DNA from: Herbidospora yilanensis
GTDB taxonomy: Bacteria; Actinomycetota; Actinomycetes; Streptosporangiales; Streptosporangiaceae
Reading direction: 5' to 3'
Length of the DNA: 61,673 nt
Assembly: GCF_001570565.1 (NCBI RefSeq)
Contig: NZ_BBXE01000037.1
Location: 24,913-86,585 of the forward strand
The first letter of the stretch is position 1, and the number at the start of each line of letters is the position of its first letter. The notes under the pieces are model-generated. The model made no database searches. It had not been told where the DNA came from and saw only the letters and a list, made by a program, of their open reading frames with translations. Below, in pieces: positions 9,712 to 43,013 of the stretch. The translations under genes and the position numbers were made by a program.

Positions 9712-10545
9712 ATGGGGTGGTACTGGAGGTTGGCTGCCGTCTTGACGCTGATGAGCGCCCTCGCGTGCGGTGGACAGGCTACCGAATCGACCGCGCCGCC
9801 TACCGGTGTTTCGGTCGCGTTGCAGCAGTGGCGTTCGGATGTCGCGGTCCATCGTGTCCAGGTCTCGGTGACCAACACCACCGAGACGCCTCTTCACATC
9901 ACCGACCTGCGGCTCGACTCCCAGTCGTTCGAGCCCTCCGCCCCCGTGAGGGTCGACACCACGCTGCCCAGGACGCCCCGGACCGACTTCCCGATCACGT
10001 ACGGCCGGGCCCGCTGCGACGCCGCCGCCATCCCGCCCGTGAAGCCGACCGACGTCGTCGCCACGATGGCGGTGGGCGACGCCCCGCCGAAGGAGGTCCG
10101 GTTCCCGATCCCGGTCACCGACGACCTGCTGACCCGGCTCGTGAAGTACGAGTGTGGCGAGTACATCCTGAAGCAGTCGGCCACGATCGCCTTCGGCCCG
10201 GACTTCCGCAGACGGGGCGACGACCTCGAAGGGGTCCTGACCGTCACCGCCACCCGTCCGGTGACCATCGACGACGTCGACGGCACGACCCACTACGTCC
10301 TGGAACCGGAGAAGAGGCGACCCGTCGCCGAGATCGCGCCGGGCACGACGGGCGTGCCGGTCACGATCCGGCCCACCCGCTGCGACCCGCACGCCTTCGC
10401 CGAGGCCAAGCAGGCCTACCTGTTCCAGGTCTGGGGACACACCGAGGGCGGGGAGACGTACCGGATGATCGTCACCCCGCCCAAGGAGATCCAGGAGAAG
10501 CTGCTCGACTACGCGATCGAGGTCTGCGACTTCCCCGCCACGTGA
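9712..10545 (+). CDS. Secreted lipoprotein, beta-rich, unknown function
   Basis: Protein of 277 residues with an N-terminal hydrophobic signal ending at ALACGG, where Cys could be acylated; the -3 residue is Ala rather than Leu, so the lipobox is imperfect. The mature region looks like two immunoglobulin-like beta domains (VHRVQVSVTNTTETPLHITDLRL suggests a DUF4352-like strand pattern) with paired cysteines at RARCDAA / YECGEY and PTRCDPH / EVCDFP. It is divergent from pyk (109 bases) and its 3' end overlaps the convergent DUF2784 gene by 37 bases. No specific function can be given. Confidence 0.75.
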   Translation: MGWYWRLAAVLTLMSALACGGQATESTAPPTGVSVALQQWRSDVAVHRVQVSVTNTTETPLHITDLRLDSQSFEPSAPVRVDTTLPRTPRTDFPITYGRARCDAAAIPPVKPTDVVATMAVGDAPPKEVRFPIPVTDDLLTRLVKYECGEYILKQSATIAFGPDFRRRGDDLEGVLTVTATRPVTIDDVDGTTHYVLEPEKRRPVAEIAPGTTGVPVTIRPTRCDPHAFAEAKQAYLFQVWGHTEGGETYRMIVTPPKEIQEKLLDYAIEVCDFPAT

Positions 10546-10898
10546 CGCCGGTGGCGGATGACCGCGAACCCGATCCAGGAGACCGCGACCACCACGATGA
10601 TCGCGACGCGGACCTCCGTGAGATAGCGCGTCGGATAGACCACGCCAGTGAGGTAGGTGTCGATGAACCCGCCGGGTTCCAGCAGCCGCGCGCCCGCCCG
10701 CTCGCGGGCCCAGTTCTCCAGGGCCGTCAGCGGGCACTCGACCACCCCGGTGAGCTGGATCGCGCCCCAGACGGCGAACCCCAGGCTGGGCCAGATCAGG
10801 CGGGGCCACCGCCACGCCAGGTAACCCCCCAGCGCGATGTACGCGATGACGAGAAAATGAACGACCATCACGGTTTGCCACAGAACGTGATAAATCAT
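10509..10898 (-). CDS. DUF2784-family membrane protein
   Basis: 129 residues with about four hydrophobic segments (VMVVHFLVIAYIALG, LIWPSLGFAVWGAIQL, VAIIVVVAVSWIGFAVI). The pattern WRWPRLIWPS, then QLTGVVECPLTALENWAR and the GFIDTYLTGVVYP segment is the DUF2784 signature. Function is unknown for the family. It overlaps the convergent lipoprotein gene at its end. ATG at 10898 opens directly into the first helix. Confidence 0.8.
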   Translation of the reverse strand: MIYHVLWQTVMVVHFLVIAYIALGGYLAWRWPRLIWPSLGFAVWGAIQLTGVVECPLTALENWARERAGARLLEPGGFIDTYLTGVVYPTRYLTEVRVAIIVVVAVSWIGFAVIRHRRHVAGKSQTSIA

Positions 10899-34715: not shown

Positions 34716-34733
34716 GGAACGGGCCGGCTCCGG

Positions 34734-35891
34734 TCAGCGCAGCAGGTCGAGGACGGCCTGGCCCGCTTCGTGGTCGCGTTCCGCCGCCCGTGGTGTGACG
34801 GCGGCGCGGACCCCCGCCGTGATCTTCCGGTGCGCGGCGCCGACGACACGGTCGGTCGTGCCGGCCCTCTGGTAGGTCTCCGGGTCGCGGGCGAAGGCCA
34901 GGGCGGCCGACGCGAGCAGGGTGCGGACGTTCGACCGGGGATCGGGGGCCATGCGCAGGAGCAGCGCGCTCGCCTGGCGGTCGGCCAGGTCGCGGTCGAA
35001 GGTGAGGATCTCGTCCAGGCGACGGCCGCCCAGTTCCGGATAGGGGCCCGCGGTCAGCGCCCGCGCCACCTCGGCGGCCCGCGTCCTGACGGCGCCGCCG
35101 AGGACCGCCCTGACCACGTCGAGCCGGATCTCCGGGGGCGGGTACGCCCCCGCGCCCGTGCCGCCCGATCCGGTGTCGAGGAAGTCGGACAGGGCGCTGA
35201 GGTAGCCGGGGCCGGTGGCGAGGGTGGCGTACACGTCGGCGAAGACCTCTCCGAGCCATCGCTGCCAGTCGGGGCCCGATCCGGCGATCAGCCTCTGGAG
35301 CGTCGGGGTCAGGCCGAGGTCGGTCTCGACCAGGTGACCCACCTCGTGGGCGATGACCAGGGCGTCGGGGAGGTGGCGGAGGTGGAACCACGGGACGCCG
35401 ATCAGCGGGACGGGGAGTCGCTCCACGACCCGGCGGAGGGTGCCCTGGGGTTTGGCGATCAGCTCGGCGGCGTAGTCGGAGCCCCGGGCGATGGAGAAGG
35501 GTTCCGCCGACCGGTCGAGGAAGACGAACGGCGGTTCCCTCCACCGGGGGGCGTACGTCCGGACCGGTTCGTAACACTCCCAGGCGAGTTCGTCGGCGAC
35601 CGTCAGGTAGTCGGCGAAGACGTCGGCCAGGCGGAGGGCGAACTTGGCGCGGAAGTAGTCGAGAACGTCATGGGTGCGGATCAGGAGGTGTTCCGTCGCC
35701 GTCCACGGATCCCCCGAGTCGGCCCTGCCGGTGAGGTGGTCGACGGCGACCTGAAGGGCGGCCGTGATGGCCGCGATCTGGGTGTGGTGCTTCTCCAGAC
35801 GGGCGCCCGGGGCCGACAGGGAACGCCAGGCGGCGAGTTCGGCCGCCAGGCCGGCGATCTTGGCGTGCAGTTCGACCACGCGGCGGCTCAT
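34734..35891 (-). CDS. HEVGH zinc-metallopeptidase-like protein (fourth gene of the CHAT operon)
   Basis: 385 residues, no signal peptide or membrane helix, so probably cytoplasmic. Residues 1-60 are helical. The metallopeptidase signature is His182-Glu-Val-Gly-His186 in ALVIAHEVGHLVET, and a candidate third zinc ligand Glu215 follows in WLGEVFADVYATLA, the spacing expected for a gluzincin-type active site. The rest is helical and unassigned. ATG at 35891 overlaps the stop of the giant NTPase (ATGA), so it is made with it. It may be an effector or a processed target of the CHAT protease (inference). I know no named family. Confidence 0.75.
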   Translation of the reverse strand: MSRRVVELHAKIAGLAAELAAWRSLSAPGARLEKHHTQIAAITAALQVAVDHLTGRADSGDPWTATEHLLIRTHDVLDYFRAKFALRLADVFADYLTVADELAWECYEPVRTYAPRWREPPFVFLDRSAEPFSIARGSDYAAELIAKPQGTLRRVVERLPVPLIGVPWFHLRHLPDALVIAHEVGHLVETDLGLTPTLQRLIAGSGPDWQRWLGEVFADVYATLATGPGYLSALSDFLDTGSGGTGAGAYPPPEIRLDVVRAVLGGAVRTRAAEVARALTAGPYPELGGRRLDEILTFDRDLADRQASALLLRMAPDPRSNVRTLLASAALAFARDPETYQRAGTTDRVVGAAHRKITAGVRAAVTPRAAERDHEAGQAVLDLLR

Positions 35892-38800
35892 CGGAACCCG
35901 GGCATGTCGGCGGGGCGCACGTTGGAGAAGAGCGCCGTGGCGGCGAAGGCGTAGGCGTCGTCCTCCGAGGCGATCTCGTGGCTCTGGATCCGCTGCCACA
36001 GTCCCGCCGTCGCCGACCCCGCCGCCACGGAGAACGCCACGTCGGTGATCGCCACCGAACGGGTCAGGCCGGGCGCCGGGCCGAGGGCCAGCACCGTGAC
36101 GGGGAAGGTGACGCGCGTGATCTCCTGGGCGAACAGGTTGCGGAGCGAGAGCTGCCGCGGGAACTCGGCGCGGTTGGCCGGCGCCAGCACGTCGAGCACG
36201 ACGAGGGGCGGGCCGCCGCGCAGCCGCCGCAGCGCCTCGTGCAGGTCACCGGGTTCGATCCCGTCGTCTTCGCCGAGGAAGGACAGGGCCGGCACGCCCC
36301 GGGCGGTGTCCATCACACCGGCGAGGTGCAGCACGCCGATCTCCCGCCGGCCGAGCGCCTCCAGCGGGGTCCGCGTCCCGGTCGTGAGGTCGCGGTTCCG
36401 GTAGACCTCGGCGACCAGGAGCGAACCGGGCAGCCCGCGCGTCCTGGCCGCCCGGACCAGATCGGGCTGAACGATCTGTACGACCGGCTCCCGCCGCCCC
36501 GGCGGCTCCTCGACCGGCACGAGCCGGGCCGGCGTCCGGTAGACGCACCTGACGCCGGGATGACGGCCCAGCGTGCGGCCGTCCCAGCCGAGCAGTTCCC
36601 AGGGCGCGCCGCCGGCGTCGCCGTCGAGGCGGACGTCGACGGGTTCCCGGGAGTCCTCCAGCCGGTCCCGTAGCCCGGGGAGCAGTCGGTCGCCGAGACC
36701 GTCTCTGGCGTGGGGAGCCGTCCAGTCGTCGCCGACGGGCGGGAGCCCGCCGAGGGGCACGACGACTTCCGGTTCGCGATCAGGGGACCTGTCGGTGGCC
36801 GGCGGCTCTGAGGCGATGAACTCGCGCTCGATCGCCCGAAGCCTCGCCGACCGCCCCAGATCCCGCCACACCGACATGGCCCGTCGCCGGTGTTCGTGGT
36901 CGGGCCGGCCCTGCGAGGCGGCGAGATCGGCCTGGGTCTCCCAGAGGGTGCCGTGCCAGTCCATGGGACGGTCGCCGACGAGTTCGCGGGCCCGGTCGAG
37001 CCGGGAGGAGGTCTTCCACTCCGGGTCGATGGGCAGGCGGCGCCGGGCGAGCTCGGCGAGGAAGGCGCCCGTCAGGTCGGGGCCGCCCTGGATCTCCGGG
37101 GGTTCCCACTCCCCCGGGCTCGCGGGCCCGATGCGGTTCTTCGCCCGGATCCAGTCGAGCCATACGACGACGTCGGAGTTCGCGAGGCCGAAGACCGCGT
37201 CGTCGAGCAGCAGGGCGGCGTCCTCGACGCGGCCGGACACGCGCGCCACCTCCACCGCGAGCAGGTCGAGGCAGGCCCGGTCCTCCCGGTCCCAATCGGC
37301 CCTCTCGGCCAGCCACGGGTCGAGGACCACCGCCGACAGATCCACGGGGAGGGTGCATTTCCGCAGCTCCCGCAGCGATTCGAGGCGGAGGCCGAGATCG
37401 TCCGTCTGCCGGGCGTACCGGATGAGGTCGCGACCCACGGGCAGTCCGGCCTGGAGCCCGGTCACGGCCGCCCTCACCTGGGCGACGGGGTCGGACGATC
37501 CCTTCGCCATTCGCAGGGCGATGCGGACCGCGTCGGCCTCCCTCGCCTGCGCGAGCCGGACGTCCACCCACAGATGGTCCGGATTCAGGACCTCGTCGGA
37601 GTTCTCGCCGAGTATCCGCTCGGCGGCCTCGACGTCGCCGGCCACCTCCAGGTGAAGCCGGGCCGTCTCCCGGGTGAGGGCCTTCCGGTCGGCCCCGAGG
37701 GTGGCCAGGCGGCGGGCGTGCGTGAGGGCGTCGAGCGCGAGCTGGTACTCCATCAGGTCGCCCAGGGCGCGGGCCCGCACGATCGTCGAACCGGTGTGGT
37801 CGGCGGAGACGCGGCCGATCAGCAGGCGGTCGGCGGCGGCCGGCCGGCGAAGCACGATCATGGCCTCGGCGGTGGCGAGCAGCCGGTCGCGTTCCGCGCC
37901 GGTCGCGATCCCCGTCTGGGGTTCCCCCGGGAACATGCCGAGCGCGCTCCCGGGCCGGCCGTGCCGGATCAGGAGCCGGGCCAGCTCCGGCAGGTCGCCC
38001 GACTCCATCAGGTAGCGGGCCGCCTCGTCGAGGGAACCTCCTCGCGCGGCGATGTCCAGGCCGAGGGCGCGGGCCGTGAACTCGACGCCCCGGCGGTCGT
38101 CCCGCTCCTCGGCCCGCGCGTACACCTGCCGCAGTTCCTCCTGGTCGGCGGAGGCGGTCAGGGCCAGGTCGACCTCGGCGGCGGTGTCCTCGTCGAGGTC
38201 CTCATCGGCGATCACCAGCAGCTCCGCCTCGGCCTCCTCGTGGCGGCCACGGGCCAGGAGCACCATCGCGGTCAGGGCGTGGTGCATCGGGGACGGCTCC
38301 CCCAGCCGCCCCGCCGCCGCGAGGGCGCTCTCGGCCCGGTTCCAGTGGGCCCCGGAGGCGCCGGGCGAGAGGTCACGCCGGGCGGCCTCGATCGCGGCCC
38401 GCGCCTGCTCGATGAGGGCCGCGTAGCGGACGTCGTCGTCCCCGGCGTAGATCAGCAGGTCGTCGGCGAGTTCCCCGGCGTGGTCGGCACGGCCGGCGCC
38501 CCAGGCGTCGGCGACCAGGGCCCGCCACATCGGCAGGGCGGCCCTGCCCCGGTGCTGGAAGGCGTGGTAGACCGCCTCGGCCGACCAGCGGGCCCAGTGC
38601 TCCCGGGCGGCGCGGCGGGTGTAGTGGGCCTCCGCCGACGCGTGCAGGACGGCGAAGACGGGGTGCTCGCGGAGCAGGTCGCGGACCGGGTCGCGCAGGT
38701 TCTCGTGGAAGACCAGACGGCCGTCGCCGGTGGGCTGGACCCAGGAGGTCGCCCCCGCGTAGGTCGTCAGCTCCTCCCAGAGGGCCGCCGGGGCGGGCGG

Positions 38801-40804
38801 GGGCGGGCCGGGGAGGAAGATCTTGGTCTTGCGGTCGGGGCGGGCGTCTTCGGCCGGGTCGTCGAGCACCTTCTCGGCCCGCAGGCCCGCCTCCAGATGG
38901 GGCCACAACACGTCGGCGACGAACTCGGCGTCGAGGTGGCGGGGCAGCACCGCGTAGCGGAGCAGCCAGCGCAACCGGTCGTCGGGGATACGTTCCAGGA
39001 TGCGGTCGAGGCAGTAGAGCAGAGCGGGTTCGCGGGCCTCCTCCACCTCCCGGGCGGTCAGCCCGGGGTTGGCCTCGGCGAGGTCGCCGTACATGGCGAG
39101 GGCGAAGGGCAGGCCGCCGGCCCGGCGGACCATGGCGTCGATCAGGCCGGGTCGTGTCACGCCCCGGCGTTCGGTCAGATAACGGGCGGCCAGGTCGTCG
39201 TCGAACGGCGGCACCTCGACGGTTTCGGCGTCGGGGAAGGCGGCGGCGAAGCCGGGGAGACGGTCGCGGAGGTCGTACCGGCCGGAGAGGACGACCCGCC
39301 CGGACAGGCGCGCGAGCGTCTCGACGAAGGGACGCGGGTCGGCGGCGGGCCTGAGCACGATCTCTTCGAGGGTGTCGAACACGACCACGTGGGCGGGCAG
39401 GTCGGCGGCGAAGAAGCGGCGGGTGACGTCGGCCCCGTCGGCGGTCGCGGCGTCGACCTCGGAGAGCAGCGCGGTGTCGGGCACGGCGGCGCGGCTCAGC
39501 ACCCGCCGCCACCGGTCGTGGTCGCGCAGCAGGTCGAAGAACGGCGCGCCGGGGATCTGCGGCGACAACTGGGCGGCGATCTCCAGCAGCACCAGCCACG
39601 GATGGCGGACCGCGTTGACCGGGTCGACGGCGTCGAGGTCGATCCGCGCGATCGGCACGTGGGGCCACTGGGTGAGGCACCAGCGGGCCGTGAACCACCG
39701 CAGCAGCATCGTCTTGCCCATCCCGCCGGGCGCGTGCAGGTGGACCGCCGCGGCGTCACCGGTCAGCACGCGCTCAAGAGCGTCTCTGCTCAGGTAGCGG
39801 CCGGTCTGGCGGTATTCGGTGGCGTAGGCGGTGCGGGCCGCCAGCCGGGCCTGGAAGGTGGCGTGCGTCTCCGCGATGAGGGGGCTGAGGCCGATCAGGT
39901 CGGGCGCGGCGAGGACGTCGAGCGCGTCCTGGCAGGCGACCAGGTCGAAGGCCGAGTCGGCGCGCCGGTAGAGCACGCGGAAGGCGGCGACGGCCCCGCC
40001 GGGTGAGACCAGCGCGGTCAGGCGCAGCTCCTCCAGCTCGTCGTCCACCTCGTCGGCGATCCGGCGGGCCGTCTCGCGCATCGCGTCGGGCACTCCGTCT
40101 CCCATGACGCGCGCCTCGTCGATCCACCACCGCGACCAGGCCGTCTCCCGGAGCGCCGGGTCGAGCCGGTAGTGTCCCGAGCCGGGCAGCCGCCTGAGCC
40201 GCCCGGTCGCGGCCATCTCGGCCAGCGGCGGGCCGTCGCCGCGCAACACCGCGTCGTAGAGCGCCTCGTCGAACCGCTCCGGCAGCGCGCACCGCATCAG
40301 CGCACCCCGCACGCCGGACGGCAGCGCGGCGAACAACAACGTGGCGAGATCGGCCAGCCGCCCGACGATCGTGTTCTGCTGCCGGACCAGCTCCCTCAGC
40401 ACGCCCGGACGGTGGAGCGGCAGCGAGCGGGCGGTCTGGATCAGGATCGCGCAGCACTCCCGGCGCAGCCCGAAGTAGAACTCCGCCAGCGGCCCGGGCA
40501 GGTCCGCGGAGAGGTCGGGCAACCCTCGGTCGAGTTCGTCGGCGTCCTCGCCGGAGAGGGGCCCGCGCAGCGAGTCACGCACCCTGCCGACCGCCGCCAG
40601 GTGGCCGGGGGCCGGTTCCCGGGGCAGCGCCGGCTCGATCCGGCGGGCCACCGGTTCGGCCATCCGGCCGGCGAGCCGCCGGACGTAGCCCGCCGACAGC
40701 CCGCCCTCCTCCTTCCGGGCCGACGCCTCGACGTCGCCGCCGGCCCACAACTCCAGGGCGCCCGAGACCACGGCCTCGGCGAGCGCCTCCACCTCGGCGC
40801 TCAT
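35888..40804 (-). CDS. Giant STAND-like NTPase with helical repeats and an inactive C-terminal CHAT domain
   Basis: 1638 residues, no membrane helix. Order: helical N-terminus (1-330); NTPase with Walker A around APGGMGKT (Lys364, Thr365), Walker B VVVFDTLEE (Asp477) and a downstream winged-helix-like part; a long TPR-like helical region (about 750-1330); and a C-terminal CHAT-like domain (about 1380-1638). The CHAT part aligns with the upstream partner but its catalytic sites are replaced: HFVGHSG is HLAGVMD (second His to Val1497) and LNAC is LDVL (Cys to Leu1540). ATG at 40804 overlaps the partner's stop (ATGA). It probably senses a signal through the repeats and oligomerises with nucleotide, as STAND proteins do (inference). 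Confidence 0.8.
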   Translation of the reverse strand: MSAEVEALAEAVVSGALELWAGGDVEASARKEEGGLSAGYVRRLAGRMAEPVARRIEPALPREPAPGHLAAVGRVRDSLRGPLSGEDADELDRGLPDLSADLPGPLAEFYFGLRRECCAILIQTARSLPLHRPGVLRELVRQQNTIVGRLADLATLLFAALPSGVRGALMRCALPERFDEALYDAVLRGDGPPLAEMAATGRLRRLPGSGHYRLDPALRETAWSRWWIDEARVMGDGVPDAMRETARRIADEVDDELEELRLTALVSPGGAVAAFRVLYRRADSAFDLVACQDALDVLAAPDLIGLSPLIAETHATFQARLAARTAYATEYRQTGRYLSRDALERVLTGDAAAVHLHAPGGMGKTMLLRWFTARWCLTQWPHVPIARIDLDAVDPVNAVRHPWLVLLEIAAQLSPQIPGAPFFDLLRDHDRWRRVLSRAAVPDTALLSEVDAATADGADVTRRFFAADLPAHVVVFDTLEEIVLRPAADPRPFVETLARLSGRVVLSGRYDLRDRLPGFAAAFPDAETVEVPPFDDDLAARYLTERRGVTRPGLIDAMVRRAGGLPFALAMYGDLAEANPGLTAREVEEAREPALLYCLDRILERIPDDRLRWLLRYAVLPRHLDAEFVADVLWPHLEAGLRAEKVLDDPAEDARPDRKTKIFLPGPPPPAPAALWEELTTYAGATSWVQPTGDGRLVFHENLRDPVRDLLREHPVFAVLHASAEAHYTRRAAREHWARWSAEAVYHAFQHRGRAALPMWRALVADAWGAGRADHAGELADDLLIYAGDDDVRYAALIEQARAAIEAARRDLSPGASGAHWNRAESALAAAGRLGEPSPMHHALTAMVLLARGRHEEAEAELLVIADEDLDEDTAAEVDLALTASADQEELRQVYARAEERDDRRGVEFTARALGLDIAARGGSLDEAARYLMESGDLPELARLLIRHGRPGSALGMFPGEPQTGIATGAERDRLLATAEAMIVLRRPAAADRLLIGRVSADHTGSTIVRARALGDLMEYQLALDALTHARRLATLGADRKALTRETARLHLEVAGDVEAAERILGENSDEVLNPDHLWVDVRLAQAREADAVRIALRMAKGSSDPVAQVRAAVTGLQAGLPVGRDLIRYARQTDDLGLRLESLRELRKCTLPVDLSAVVLDPWLAERADWDREDRACLDLLAVEVARVSGRVEDAALLLDDAVFGLANSDVVVWLDWIRAKNRIGPASPGEWEPPEIQGGPDLTGAFLAELARRRLPIDPEWKTSSRLDRARELVGDRPMDWHGTLWETQADLAASQGRPDHEHRRRAMSVWRDLGRSARLRAIEREFIASEPPATDRSPDREPEVVVPLGGLPPVGDDWTAPHARDGLGDRLLPGLRDRLEDSREPVDVRLDGDAGGAPWELLGWDGRTLGRHPGVRCVYRTPARLVPVEEPPGRREPVVQIVQPDLVRAARTRGLPGSLLVAEVYRNRDLTTGTRTPLEALGRREIGVLHLAGVMDTARGVPALSFLGEDDGIEPGDLHEALRRLRGGPPLVVLDVLAPANRAEFPRQLSLRNLFAQEITRVTFPVTVLALGPAPGLTRSVAITDVAFSVAAGSATAGLWQRIQSHEIASEDDAYAFAATALFSNVRPADMPGFR

Positions 40805-42585
40805 GGCCGGCCAGCCGCGATCATGGTGTGGAACATGTGCAGGTGGGACGGCATGAACACCGGCGTGTTGTCCCGGGCCCACTCCGAGGCGTCCTTCCAG
40901 CCGCCCTGATAGGGCCGGTTGGCGCGGGCGCCGAACTCACGGAAGATCTCTTCGGTGCGGTCCCGGTCCCACGGCTCGACCGTGAGCCGCTGCGCGCCGT
41001 CGGCGAACGCGCCGAGCACCCGTTCGTCGTCCTCCGCGACGATCACGGAGACCCCGCTCAGCCGGCCCTCCGCGACCGGCAGGAGCAGGCCGGGCACCAG
41101 GGTGCCGGTCAGTTCCGGCACGAGCGCCAGATGGTCGAGGGCGATCGTCACCCGCCCGGCCTCGGCCAGCAGCCCGCGCAGCGCCTCGAACAGCGCCTCG
41201 CGCAGTTGCGGCTCCGCCTCGTTGGCGGCCTCCCACGGGCCCCGGTCGTCCGGCCGGAAGGGCCCCGGCGGAGGCCGCAGGCCGCGTCTCAGGTGGACGA
41301 GGTGGTGCCGGAACCTCTCGGCCCCGGCGAGCGGAGGCAGGGCGTCGGCCACCGCGCGGACCACGTCGAGCCACGGCACGTTGCGCCCGTCGCGGAGGGC
41401 TTCGGCGTCCACGTACAGGGCCGTGCAGCCGCGCAGCCGCCAGGTGAACACGCACGCCCGGACGAGCGACGACTTGCCCACCTCGGGCCCGCCGCCGACG
41501 AGCAGCGCCCGGTAGGGCGGCGCGTCGGAGTCGGCCCCGCCCCACAACCGCCATCGTTCGGCGGCCCGGTCGACCGCCATCGCCACCCCCGAATAGAGCT
41601 CGGCCAGGTGGCGCGCCGTGTCGGGGTCGACGCCGAGACTCCACGGCAGCACGTCCTCGGGGGCGTGCCCGACCACCAGCGACGGCGCCTCCCACTCGGG
41701 CAGGCCCTCCCTGAACATGACCACGCGGGCGGCCCGGACCGCGTCGCCGACCGTCGCCCCCGACGCGAGCGACTCGTAGAGGTTCTCGGCGAACACCACC
41801 GCCGGGGCGGACGCGACGTCGCCCCGCATCGTCACCACGGCGGCGGCGCCGAAGGCGTCGGCGAGGTCCCAGATCGAGGCGGCGGGACCGTAGGCGGTCC
41901 GGCAGGCGTTGAGCACGACCAGCCGGGGCGGCTCGGTGATCGCGTTGACGATCCTGTCGGCGGTCACGCCGACGGCGCCCGAGGGGCCGTTGAACTCCAG
42001 CATCGGCAGCCCTTCCAGCGGATCGATCCCGCTGTGGCCGACGAAGTGCAGGACGTGCGGCCGCATGTCGTCCATACGCTCGAAGAACTCCCGGGGGGTC
42101 GGCTGGTCGAGCACCTCGACGTGCCAGGCGCCGTGGCGGGCGCGCAGCGACCGTCTGATCGCGTCGGCCTCCTCGCGGGCGAGCAGCGCGGGATCGCCGG
42201 TGTCGCCGAGCACGATGAGCAGCCGGATCGGCACCAGCACCCCCGGACGGCTCGGCGTCCGCGGTCGCCCGCGCGCCCAGCAGGCCCCCTCGGCGAGGAA
42301 CGGCCGCCGCCCGTCGGGGGCGATCATCGACTCCCAGGGCAGCGCCCTCAGCTCCTCGTCAACGATGTCGAGGTAGACGGTCCGGGCGGCGTCCAGCGAC
42401 GGGTCATGGACCAGGTCGTGGAGCGCCCGGCCCAGGGAGCGCCGGCCCTGCGGGGACGCGTCGCCGCCGAGGGCGGACAACCGGGCCGGGTCGGCGTGCC
42501 GGAGCAGCCGTTCTCCGGCGTCGTCGACGAGCACGACCGGATGACCGGACGCGCTCCTCGGGCCGACCCGGACGACACTCATCAC
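40801..42585 (-). CDS. CHAT (caspase-like) protease fused to a P-loop NTPase
   Basis: 594 residues. The N-terminal CHAT domain (about 60-320) has ALPWESM, then HFVGHSG with catalytic His184 and VVLNACRT with catalytic Cys228, followed by the typical VVTMRGDV and AFAENLY-like region (VVFAENLYESL). Residues 340-594 hold an NTPase with Walker A GGPEVGKSS (Lys371) and a possible Walker B in VTIALDHL. Domain order (protease first, NTPase second) is the reverse of its giant partner. GTG at 42585 overlaps the preceding stop (GTGA); the next codon is ATG. It should be the active protease of the locus. Confidence 0.85.
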   Translation of the reverse strand: MMSVVRVGPRSASGHPVVLVDDAGERLLRHADPARLSALGGDASPQGRRSLGRALHDLVHDPSLDAARTVYLDIVDEELRALPWESMIAPDGRRPFLAEGACWARGRPRTPSRPGVLVPIRLLIVLGDTGDPALLAREEADAIRRSLRARHGAWHVEVLDQPTPREFFERMDDMRPHVLHFVGHSGIDPLEGLPMLEFNGPSGAVGVTADRIVNAITEPPRLVVLNACRTAYGPAASIWDLADAFGAAAVVTMRGDVASAPAVVFAENLYESLASGATVGDAVRAARVVMFREGLPEWEAPSLVVGHAPEDVLPWSLGVDPDTARHLAELYSGVAMAVDRAAERWRLWGGADSDAPPYRALLVGGGPEVGKSSLVRACVFTWRLRGCTALYVDAEALRDGRNVPWLDVVRAVADALPPLAGAERFRHHLVHLRRGLRPPPGPFRPDDRGPWEAANEAEPQLREALFEALRGLLAEAGRVTIALDHLALVPELTGTLVPGLLLPVAEGRLSGVSVIVAEDDERVLGAFADGAQRLTVEPWDRDRTEEIFREFGARANRPYQGGWKDASEWARDNTPVFMPSHLHMFHTMIAAGRP

Positions 42586-42980
42586 GCGTTAGGGAACAAC
42601 CTCCGCGCCAGCGCCGCAAGGTCCGACTCGGCCGCCATCGCCGGCTCCCGGCTGCCCCGCCGCGCGCTCTGCTCCTCGGACGCCAGCACCGCCGACGCCA
42701 GCGCCCGCCCGTTGGCCGCGTCGGTCTCCGCCACGGCCGCCCGGTCCTGCGCCTGGACGGCCTCCTGGACGGCGGCGGACGAGCGTCCGACGGCGGTCCC
42801 GAAGAGCACCCCGGCCGCCGCGAAGACCAGTGCTTCCAGCCCCTGGAGCAGGAAGACGAGCCGGTCCCACTGCGGGTCGTCGCGCATCAGCACGAGAACC
42901 ACGAGGGCGGCGACGAACAGGACGATGAGCCCCACACCTAACCAGACCTGCAGCTTGGTGGGCCCTTGGTTCTCCGGCAT
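42582..42980 (-). CDS. Small two-helix membrane protein (first gene of the CHAT operon)
   Basis: 132 residues from the ATG at 42980 (an in-frame GTG at 42998 is the alternative). Two hydrophobic helices, VWLGVGLIVLFVAALVVLVL and LVFLLQGLEALVFAAAGVLFG, are followed by an alanine-rich helical, coiled-coil-like cytoplasmic region (AAVQEAVQAQDRAAVAETDAA). Its stop overlaps the CHAT-NTPase start. It may anchor the system to the membrane or be the pore or target unit (inference). No family recognised. It begins 33 bases after the second methyltransferase gene, in the same direction. Confidence 0.75.
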   Translation of the reverse strand: MPENQGPTKLQVWLGVGLIVLFVAALVVLVLMRDDPQWDRLVFLLQGLEALVFAAAGVLFGTAVGRSSAAVQEAVQAQDRAAVAETDAANGRALASAVLASEEQSARRGSREPAMAAESDLAALARRLFPNA

Positions 42981-43013
42981 GTCATCTCGACGCGTCACGC
43001 ACGGGGCGGGTTG

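Follow-up and report, generated by a model that had tools for sequence, protein, structure and literature searches.

A recurrent cassette of CHAT protease, STAND NTPase and metallopeptidase genes in Herbidospora yilanensis

A stretch of 61,673 nucleotides of the Herbidospora yilanensis contig NZ_BBXE01000037.1, hereafter called the window, carries on its minus strand four closely packed genes, whose products are a small membrane protein, a fusion of a CHAT protease with an NTPase, a STAND-type NTPase and a gluzincin-like metallopeptidase (MEP). This raises the question of whether these genes form a unit and of what such a unit might do. The cassette is a real, recurrent and apparently unnamed module of the CHAT/STAND conflict-type kind. 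Its genes are the following:

42980-34734, minus strand: four-gene cassette (membrane protein, CHAT-NTPase, STAND NTPase, MEP)
42582..42980, minus strand: P0001, small membrane protein with two helices, 132 amino acids from ATG 42980 or 138 amino acids from GTG 42998
40801..42585, minus strand: P0002, CHAT protease-NTPase fusion, 594 amino acids (Pfam; PDB profile match)
35888..40804, minus strand: P0003, large STAND-type NTPase, 1638 amino acids
34734..35891, minus strand: P0004, MEP, 385 amino acids, without a Pfam match above cut-off

The initial annotation had assigned these domains to the four genes, including helical repeats and a pseudo-CHAT domain in the 1638-residue NTPase and an HEVGH motif in the metallopeptidase, and the assignment stands. 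It had also joined all four genes by 4-base overlaps, which is correct for the P0002/P0003 and P0003/P0004 junctions; the P0001/P0002 overlap measures 4 bases with the GTG 42998 start and 1 base with the ATG 42980 start. The ATG is most likely the true start, because its methionine is kept across seven aligned copies of P0001.

When 200 genomes of the family were searched with P0004, 15 matched, the genome of the window included, and CHAT, STAND and MEP genes stand together in 12 of these 15 (again including the window's own). Seven family genomes (that of the window, three Herbidospora and three from other genera) have the order membrane-CHAT-STAND-MEP, and five have the order MEP-CHAT-STAND. 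The remaining three show an MEP fragment only, an MEP gene in another operon and a contig ending at the MEP gene. Beyond the family, an Anaerolinea metagenome-assembled genome (L027) and a second genome of the same class (L091) have the order CHAT-STAND-MEP followed by a matrixin-like peptidase gene; Anaerolinea belongs to the Chloroflexota and Herbidospora to the Actinomycetota. The order CHAT-STAND-MEP is also found on a plasmid of Sinorhizobium terangae (L088), and a Bradyrhizobium plasmid has a pair of CHAT genes, along with phospholipase-like genes, in association with MEP. Around the MEP match on a Paraburkholderia plasmid, no CHAT gene was seen within the stretch read. The CHAT genes were recognized by Pfam in L032 and L033, by blastp in L034 and L035, and by custom profile and alignment in L036. 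It should be noted that the custom profiles were grown on the same loci to which they were applied, and that the NTPase profile also caught unrelated NTPases (L031, L110). CHAT, STAND and MEP thus form a recurrent core, found in three phyla, in two gene orders and on one plasmid. Co-occurrence in distant genomes, which the initial annotation had proposed as a check for all four genes, is found for this trio in Chloroflexota and on the Sinorhizobium plasmid; it does not extend to the four-gene set, since P0001 is found in family loci only. Separately, a C-terminal fragment of an MEP gene at L031 (9999-10379) appears to be what is left of a cassette that was lost.

Within the genus, the site of the cassette can be compared with empty counterparts:

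34716..43012: block missing in two genus genomes (L117, L118), flanked by cyclopropane-synthase and 211-amino-acid genes

The cassette is absent from this site in all three sister genomes tested (L117, L118, L119). The flanking genes of L118 are separated by 36 bases and those of L117 by about 430, with a 102-amino-acid open reading frame (ORF) between them (2569-2877). L119 has a 153-amino-acid ORF at the site (10200-10661), and elsewhere in the same genome the other gene order is present (L035). The different small ORFs of L117 and L119 point to a possible small hotspot of insertion at this site. In Herbidospora, the cassette is gained or lost as one block. Chance packing of unrelated genes was considered and rejected on the grounds of recurrence together with block loss.

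Compared with the three Herbidospora copies, seven flanking genes are 86-99% identical, while identities amount to 64-85% for STAND, 79-94% for CHAT, 84-89% for MEP and 92-93% for the membrane protein. Within the STAND protein, comparison with L018 and L019 (L017 lying outside the alignment) gives 59-62% identity for the repeats and 82-87% for the NTPase. Such fast divergence of the repeats would fit a diversifying sensor; relaxed constraint would fit too.

Two domains are distinguished in P0002:

41656..42435, minus strand: CHAT domain, residues 51-310, with His184 and Cys228
40804..41550, minus strand: NTPase domain, residues 346-594 (K371, D484)

The Pfam CHAT model (PF12770) matches P0002 with E 2.8e-21 and 76.6 bits, for a cut-off of 24. 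The catalytic pair, described as intact in the initial annotation, is indeed so, with H184 in 16/16 and C228 in 15/16 aligned CHAT rows. The alignment profile of P0002 matches the SAVED-CHAT structure 8tl0 (E 2.1e-18), whereas the single sequence finds no match among PDB sequences. The NTPase part matches AAA_16 at E 7.2e-6, under Pfam's cut-off, and its Walker A lysine and Walker B aspartate, K371 and D484, are retained in 9/9 rows of the window order (here and below, Walker counts for P0002 omit two Bradyrhizobium rows).

P0003 comprises three parts:

38885..39784, minus strand: NTPase, residues 341-640 (GGMGKT, D477), the best-conserved part of the protein
36785..38569, minus strand: TPR-like helical repeats, residues 746-1340, poorly conserved (PDB profile matches; structure model)
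35891..36634, minus strand: pseudo-CHAT domain, residues 1391-1638

The match of P0003 to AAA_16 (7.4e-4) is under Pfam's cut-off, and Walker A and B are present in 9/9 aligned rows. The repeats give PDB profile matches to TPR proteins and are modelled as a helical superhelix. No N-terminal effector domain was recognized by Pfam. At the C-terminus, no row out of nine has a His at 1497 or a Cys at 1540; this domain is an inactive CHAT, recognized by its fold, with the catalytic pair absent. The pseudo-CHAT profile found two chance-level matches only (0.2 and 0.38) among PDB sequences.

The metallopeptidase is marked by two motifs:

35334..35348, minus strand: HEVGH, residues 182-186, on model helix 173-191
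35235..35249, minus strand: ExxAD, residues 215-219, with the proposed third metal ligand, on model helix 213-226

H182, E183, H186 and E215 are conserved in 17/17 MEP rows, and E215 is a putative metal ligand. The structure model of P0004 (pLDDT 80.2, pTM 0.84) gave 0 Foldseek matches in the PDB at E <= 0.001, which is no proof of a new fold; by VIA-align, matches are mostly helical hairpins covering residues 1-86. Against the Zn_peptidase family PF04228, P0004 scores 14.7 bits for a cut-off of 23.2 and thus falls outside the profile.

Relatives of P0004 extend further. In phylum-wide samples, the P0004 query matched 1/296 genomes, namely its own, and the MEP profile matched 16/296 (its own, one at 3.3e-10 and 14 by short weak matches), these counts being lower bounds as mostly six candidates were scored per genome. 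Two of the 14 weak matches were inspected and contain HEVGHH and ELQAD. In the class of the Anaerolinea genome, the profile matched 29/298 genomes. In 11/11 loci of this class sample (L095-L105), a large ORF of 668-1008 amino acids, two being cut by the contig end, lies tail-to-tail with a divergent MEP gene, with one ORF between them in L097; the only one tested (L096) has BTAD, NB-ARC and TPR domains. An actinobacterium (L037) and the Paraburkholderia plasmid (L090) share an array of MEP, a protein of about 170 amino acids, a large protein, a protein of about 400 amino acids and an M20-like peptidase, as called with Pfam for L037 only and by eye for L090. The Bradyrhizobium plasmid has a second, more distant MEP-family gene (L089, 3816-5204, minus strand), adjoining a dCTP deaminase gene. 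In Streptomyces, seven loci with MEP homologues were found (L020-L026), one of which (L020) was scanned for domains: its neighbours are bpMoxR (5e-73), fvmX2 'FtsH ternary system domain X2' (6.5e-61), an FtsH-like AAA ATPase and a radical SAM protein. In 7/7 of these loci, a protein of about 270-300 amino acids precedes the MEP homologue; that of L020 (293 amino acids) is without a Pfam match.

The fourth gene behaves differently from the trio. P0001 homologues were seen only in the seven family loci with the window gene order, with identities of 93, 90 and 93% to the genus copies (L017-L019) and 44-49% to L028-L030, and P0001 is an accessory part of the cassette. No gasdermin model appeared among its Pfam matches. 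In the Chloroflexota trio loci, a matrixin/astacin-like metallopeptidase gene directly follows MEP (L027, 9240-10052; L091, 11377-12108). The MEP-CHAT-STAND operons end with a conserved protein of about 320 amino acids in 4/4 loci read (L120-L123; four of the five such loci), without a Pfam match in the two copies tested. The trio is thus constant while the extra gene varies by lineage, being a two-helix membrane protein, a matrixin-like peptidase or a protein of about 320 amino acids.

How does the cassette compare with known systems? The initial annotation could match the gene set to no named system, and none was seen among the papers listed by literature searches or in Pfam, NCBIfam or PADLOC; the data files of PMC7159879 may list it. 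In Csx29, TPRs are combined with a pseudo-caspase domain, CHAT1, and a catalytically active one, CHAT2; once RNA binding is relayed via the TPR part, the protein cleaves Csx30 at a single site (PMC10028731). The cassette shares with Csx29/Craspase (type III-E CRISPR) a TPR superhelix and two CHAT domains, one of them a pseudo-CHAT and the other active. By Foldseek, the C-terminal half of P0003 matches chain B of 8eey (Cas7-11, Csx29, Csx30), which from its length would be Csx29, with E 3.2e-4 and TM-scores of 0.15-0.18, so that the likeness is one of general layout only. Unlike in Csx29, where both domains are paired in one protein, the active CHAT is in the separate NTPase-fused P0002 and the pseudo-CHAT in P0003; moreover, a STAND NTPase stands ahead of the TPRs and a metallopeptidase is added. 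No Cas gene is found among the 7 flanking genes scanned with Pfam; Cas7-11 and CRISPR arrays were not searched for. With respect to SAVED-CHAT (8tl0), an NTPase and a STAND partner replace the cyclic-nucleotide sensor: no SAVED domain was recognized in P0002, where Pfam to E 1 gives CHAT, AAA_16 and Peptidase_C25, and PADLOC SAVED_CHAT covers residues 119-191 only (8.6e-4).

Simpler FtsH ternary systems consist of bpMoxR, fvmX2, an FtsH-like AAA protein, the unnamed effector NEFF1 and a radical SAM enzyme (PMC7159879). The MEP relative of Streptomyces L020, lying with bpMoxR and fvmX2, relates the cassette to these MoxR-vWA FtsH ternary conflict systems (Kaur et al., 2020, PMC7159879), and this homologue or its 293-amino-acid neighbour may be NEFF1. 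Unlike in ternary systems, neither MoxR, vWA nor FtsH is found by Pfam among the 7 flanking genes of the window, and CHAT and STAND occur instead. In the EACC1/caspase membrane system (System 4 of PMC7159879), a small membrane protein also stands upstream of a caspase-superfamily protease; however, EACC1 has one transmembrane helix and alpha+beta ends, whereas P0001 has two helices, and STAND and MEP are additional. Borvo (BovA) is a CHAT defence protein (PMC10952713) with weak matches to P0002 (0.0047) and to 1/16 of its relatives, but the likeness is confined to part of the CHAT domain, and the cassette has partner genes. With Avs/bNACHT (PMC10907252), it shares a STAND-type NTPase whose C-terminal repeats probably act as sensor, but its effector is in separate genes. 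Finally, the YpfJ/KPN_02809 zinc peptidases (PF04228) resemble P0004 by weak matches in the local HExGH...ExxAD region; P0004 stays under every cut-off and the remainder of the protein is different.

These data lead us to a tentative reading, held at slightly less than even confidence, in which the cassette is a nucleotide-gated two-protease switch, most likely for conflict with invaders or regulated cell death. Death or defence is the likeliest use because of the company that the CHAT, STAND and MEP families keep, and such a role is favored by the CHAT/STAND families, block gain or loss, the fast repeats, the MEP relative at the FtsH ternary locus and the plasmid copy. The switch reading as such also draws on the recurrence of the trio, the conserved catalytic residues, the pseudo-CHAT devoid of its pair, the CHAT architecture described for Csx29 and a correlation among the pairwise distances of the three proteins over 15 trio loci (0.915-0.942; 0/5000 permutations per pair). 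P0003 would be receptor and hub, its variable TPR superhelix sensing a foreign or damage signal, and nucleoside triphosphate binding would drive its change of state. Its pseudo-CHAT would then dock P0002 and allosterically activate the CHAT of the latter in trans, so that the two proteins would make up a two-chain counterpart of the pseudo/active CHAT pair of Csx29 or separase. The activated CHAT would make a limited cut, with MEP and/or P0001 as candidate substrates; MEP would come second in a cascade, and P0001 might carry the response to the membrane. A more specific version, in which an inflammasome-like, split separase/Csx29 uses an NTP-driven STAND-TPR receptor with pseudo-CHAT to activate CHAT in trans, unleashing MEP and a lineage-specific output (P0001 in the window), is speculative and rather doubtful. 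If true, it would represent a constant core with exchangeable outputs in three phyla.

Several points weigh against the conflict switch. The correlation of distances is a sign of shared inheritance, not of interaction, and is partly a two-clade effect. K371 and D484 are lost in 5/5 rows of the MEP-CHAT-STAND order, so that the NTPase of P0002 is not essential to every version. Among 19 of the 29 matched genomes of the Anaerolinea class, the trio occurs in 2, one CHAT gene is beside MEP in 1 and CHAT is absent in 16, the absence being weak evidence because several contigs are short (3-11 kb); the MEP family is therefore wider than the trio. P0001 may be merely an anchor. Fast divergence with gain and loss would also fit non-defence accessory genes. 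The window copy looks to be in a core chromosomal region, among cyclopropane-synthase and ABC-exporter genes (the seven flanking genes give, by Pfam, an amine oxidase, DUF1365, two CMAS, two ABC exporters and one without match), with trp/his genes recognized by eye nearby. No defence island was recognized around it, its neighbours not having been run against PADLOC; in PADLOC, P0001, P0003 and P0004 are matchless and P0002 has weak partial matches in CHAT only. On viral contigs, a single motif pattern matched 4 stretches, none encoding a relative. In a check for defence neighbours of the Sinorhizobium copy, one protein has WYL matches and one a weak DruK match among 10 proteins, 7 of which come from that locus. 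A phage or prophage origin was rejected, the single-motif scan having found no relative and P0002 matching a single unannotated phage record (E 2e-8).

Three rivals have to be set against the conflict switch. The first, unlikely yet serious, is stress or developmental signalling of mycelial bacteria, where CHAT would cut a membrane protein or regulator according to envelope state and MEP would finish the processing. It is serious because of the cyclopropane-synthase and exporter neighbours and because the Foldseek hits for the TPR/pseudo-CHAT part include the transmembrane anti-sigma factor DdvA (E 3.0e-6, TM-scores 0.18-0.19). The cassette directly follows a cyclopropane-fatty-acid synthase gene in the genus as well as in L028 and L029 (the 211-amino-acid flank only in L028), and among the Herbidospora copies P0001 varies least of the four cassette proteins. 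However, neighbours differ in L030, L027, L088 and L091, 3/3 sister genomes lack the cassette at the site, one of them having the other order elsewhere (L035), and the repeat domain is the fastest-evolving part. Much less probable is peptide maturation, MEP processing a small peptide as has been proposed for metallopeptidase-peptide pairs and for the radical SAM/peptide genes associated with ternary systems (PMC7159879): the L020 homologue does lie beside a radical SAM gene and also a 73-amino-acid ORF, but no precursor peptide or radical SAM was recognized at the window trio or in the other trio ORF lists, where most neighbours are unscanned for domains. That functionally unrelated neighbours are held together by operon inertia is highly improbable: packing on the same strand is common in itself, but the trio recurs in two orders across three phyla, one copy lies on a plasmid, and the cassette is lost as a block.

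If the conflict switch is correct, bacterial immunity or regulated death would gain a cascade in which NTPases control proteases of two classes. STAND receptors would be tied to the combination of pseudo- and active CHAT seen in separase and Csx29, and an unnamed metallopeptidase family, also found in an FtsH ternary conflict locus, would be given a function.

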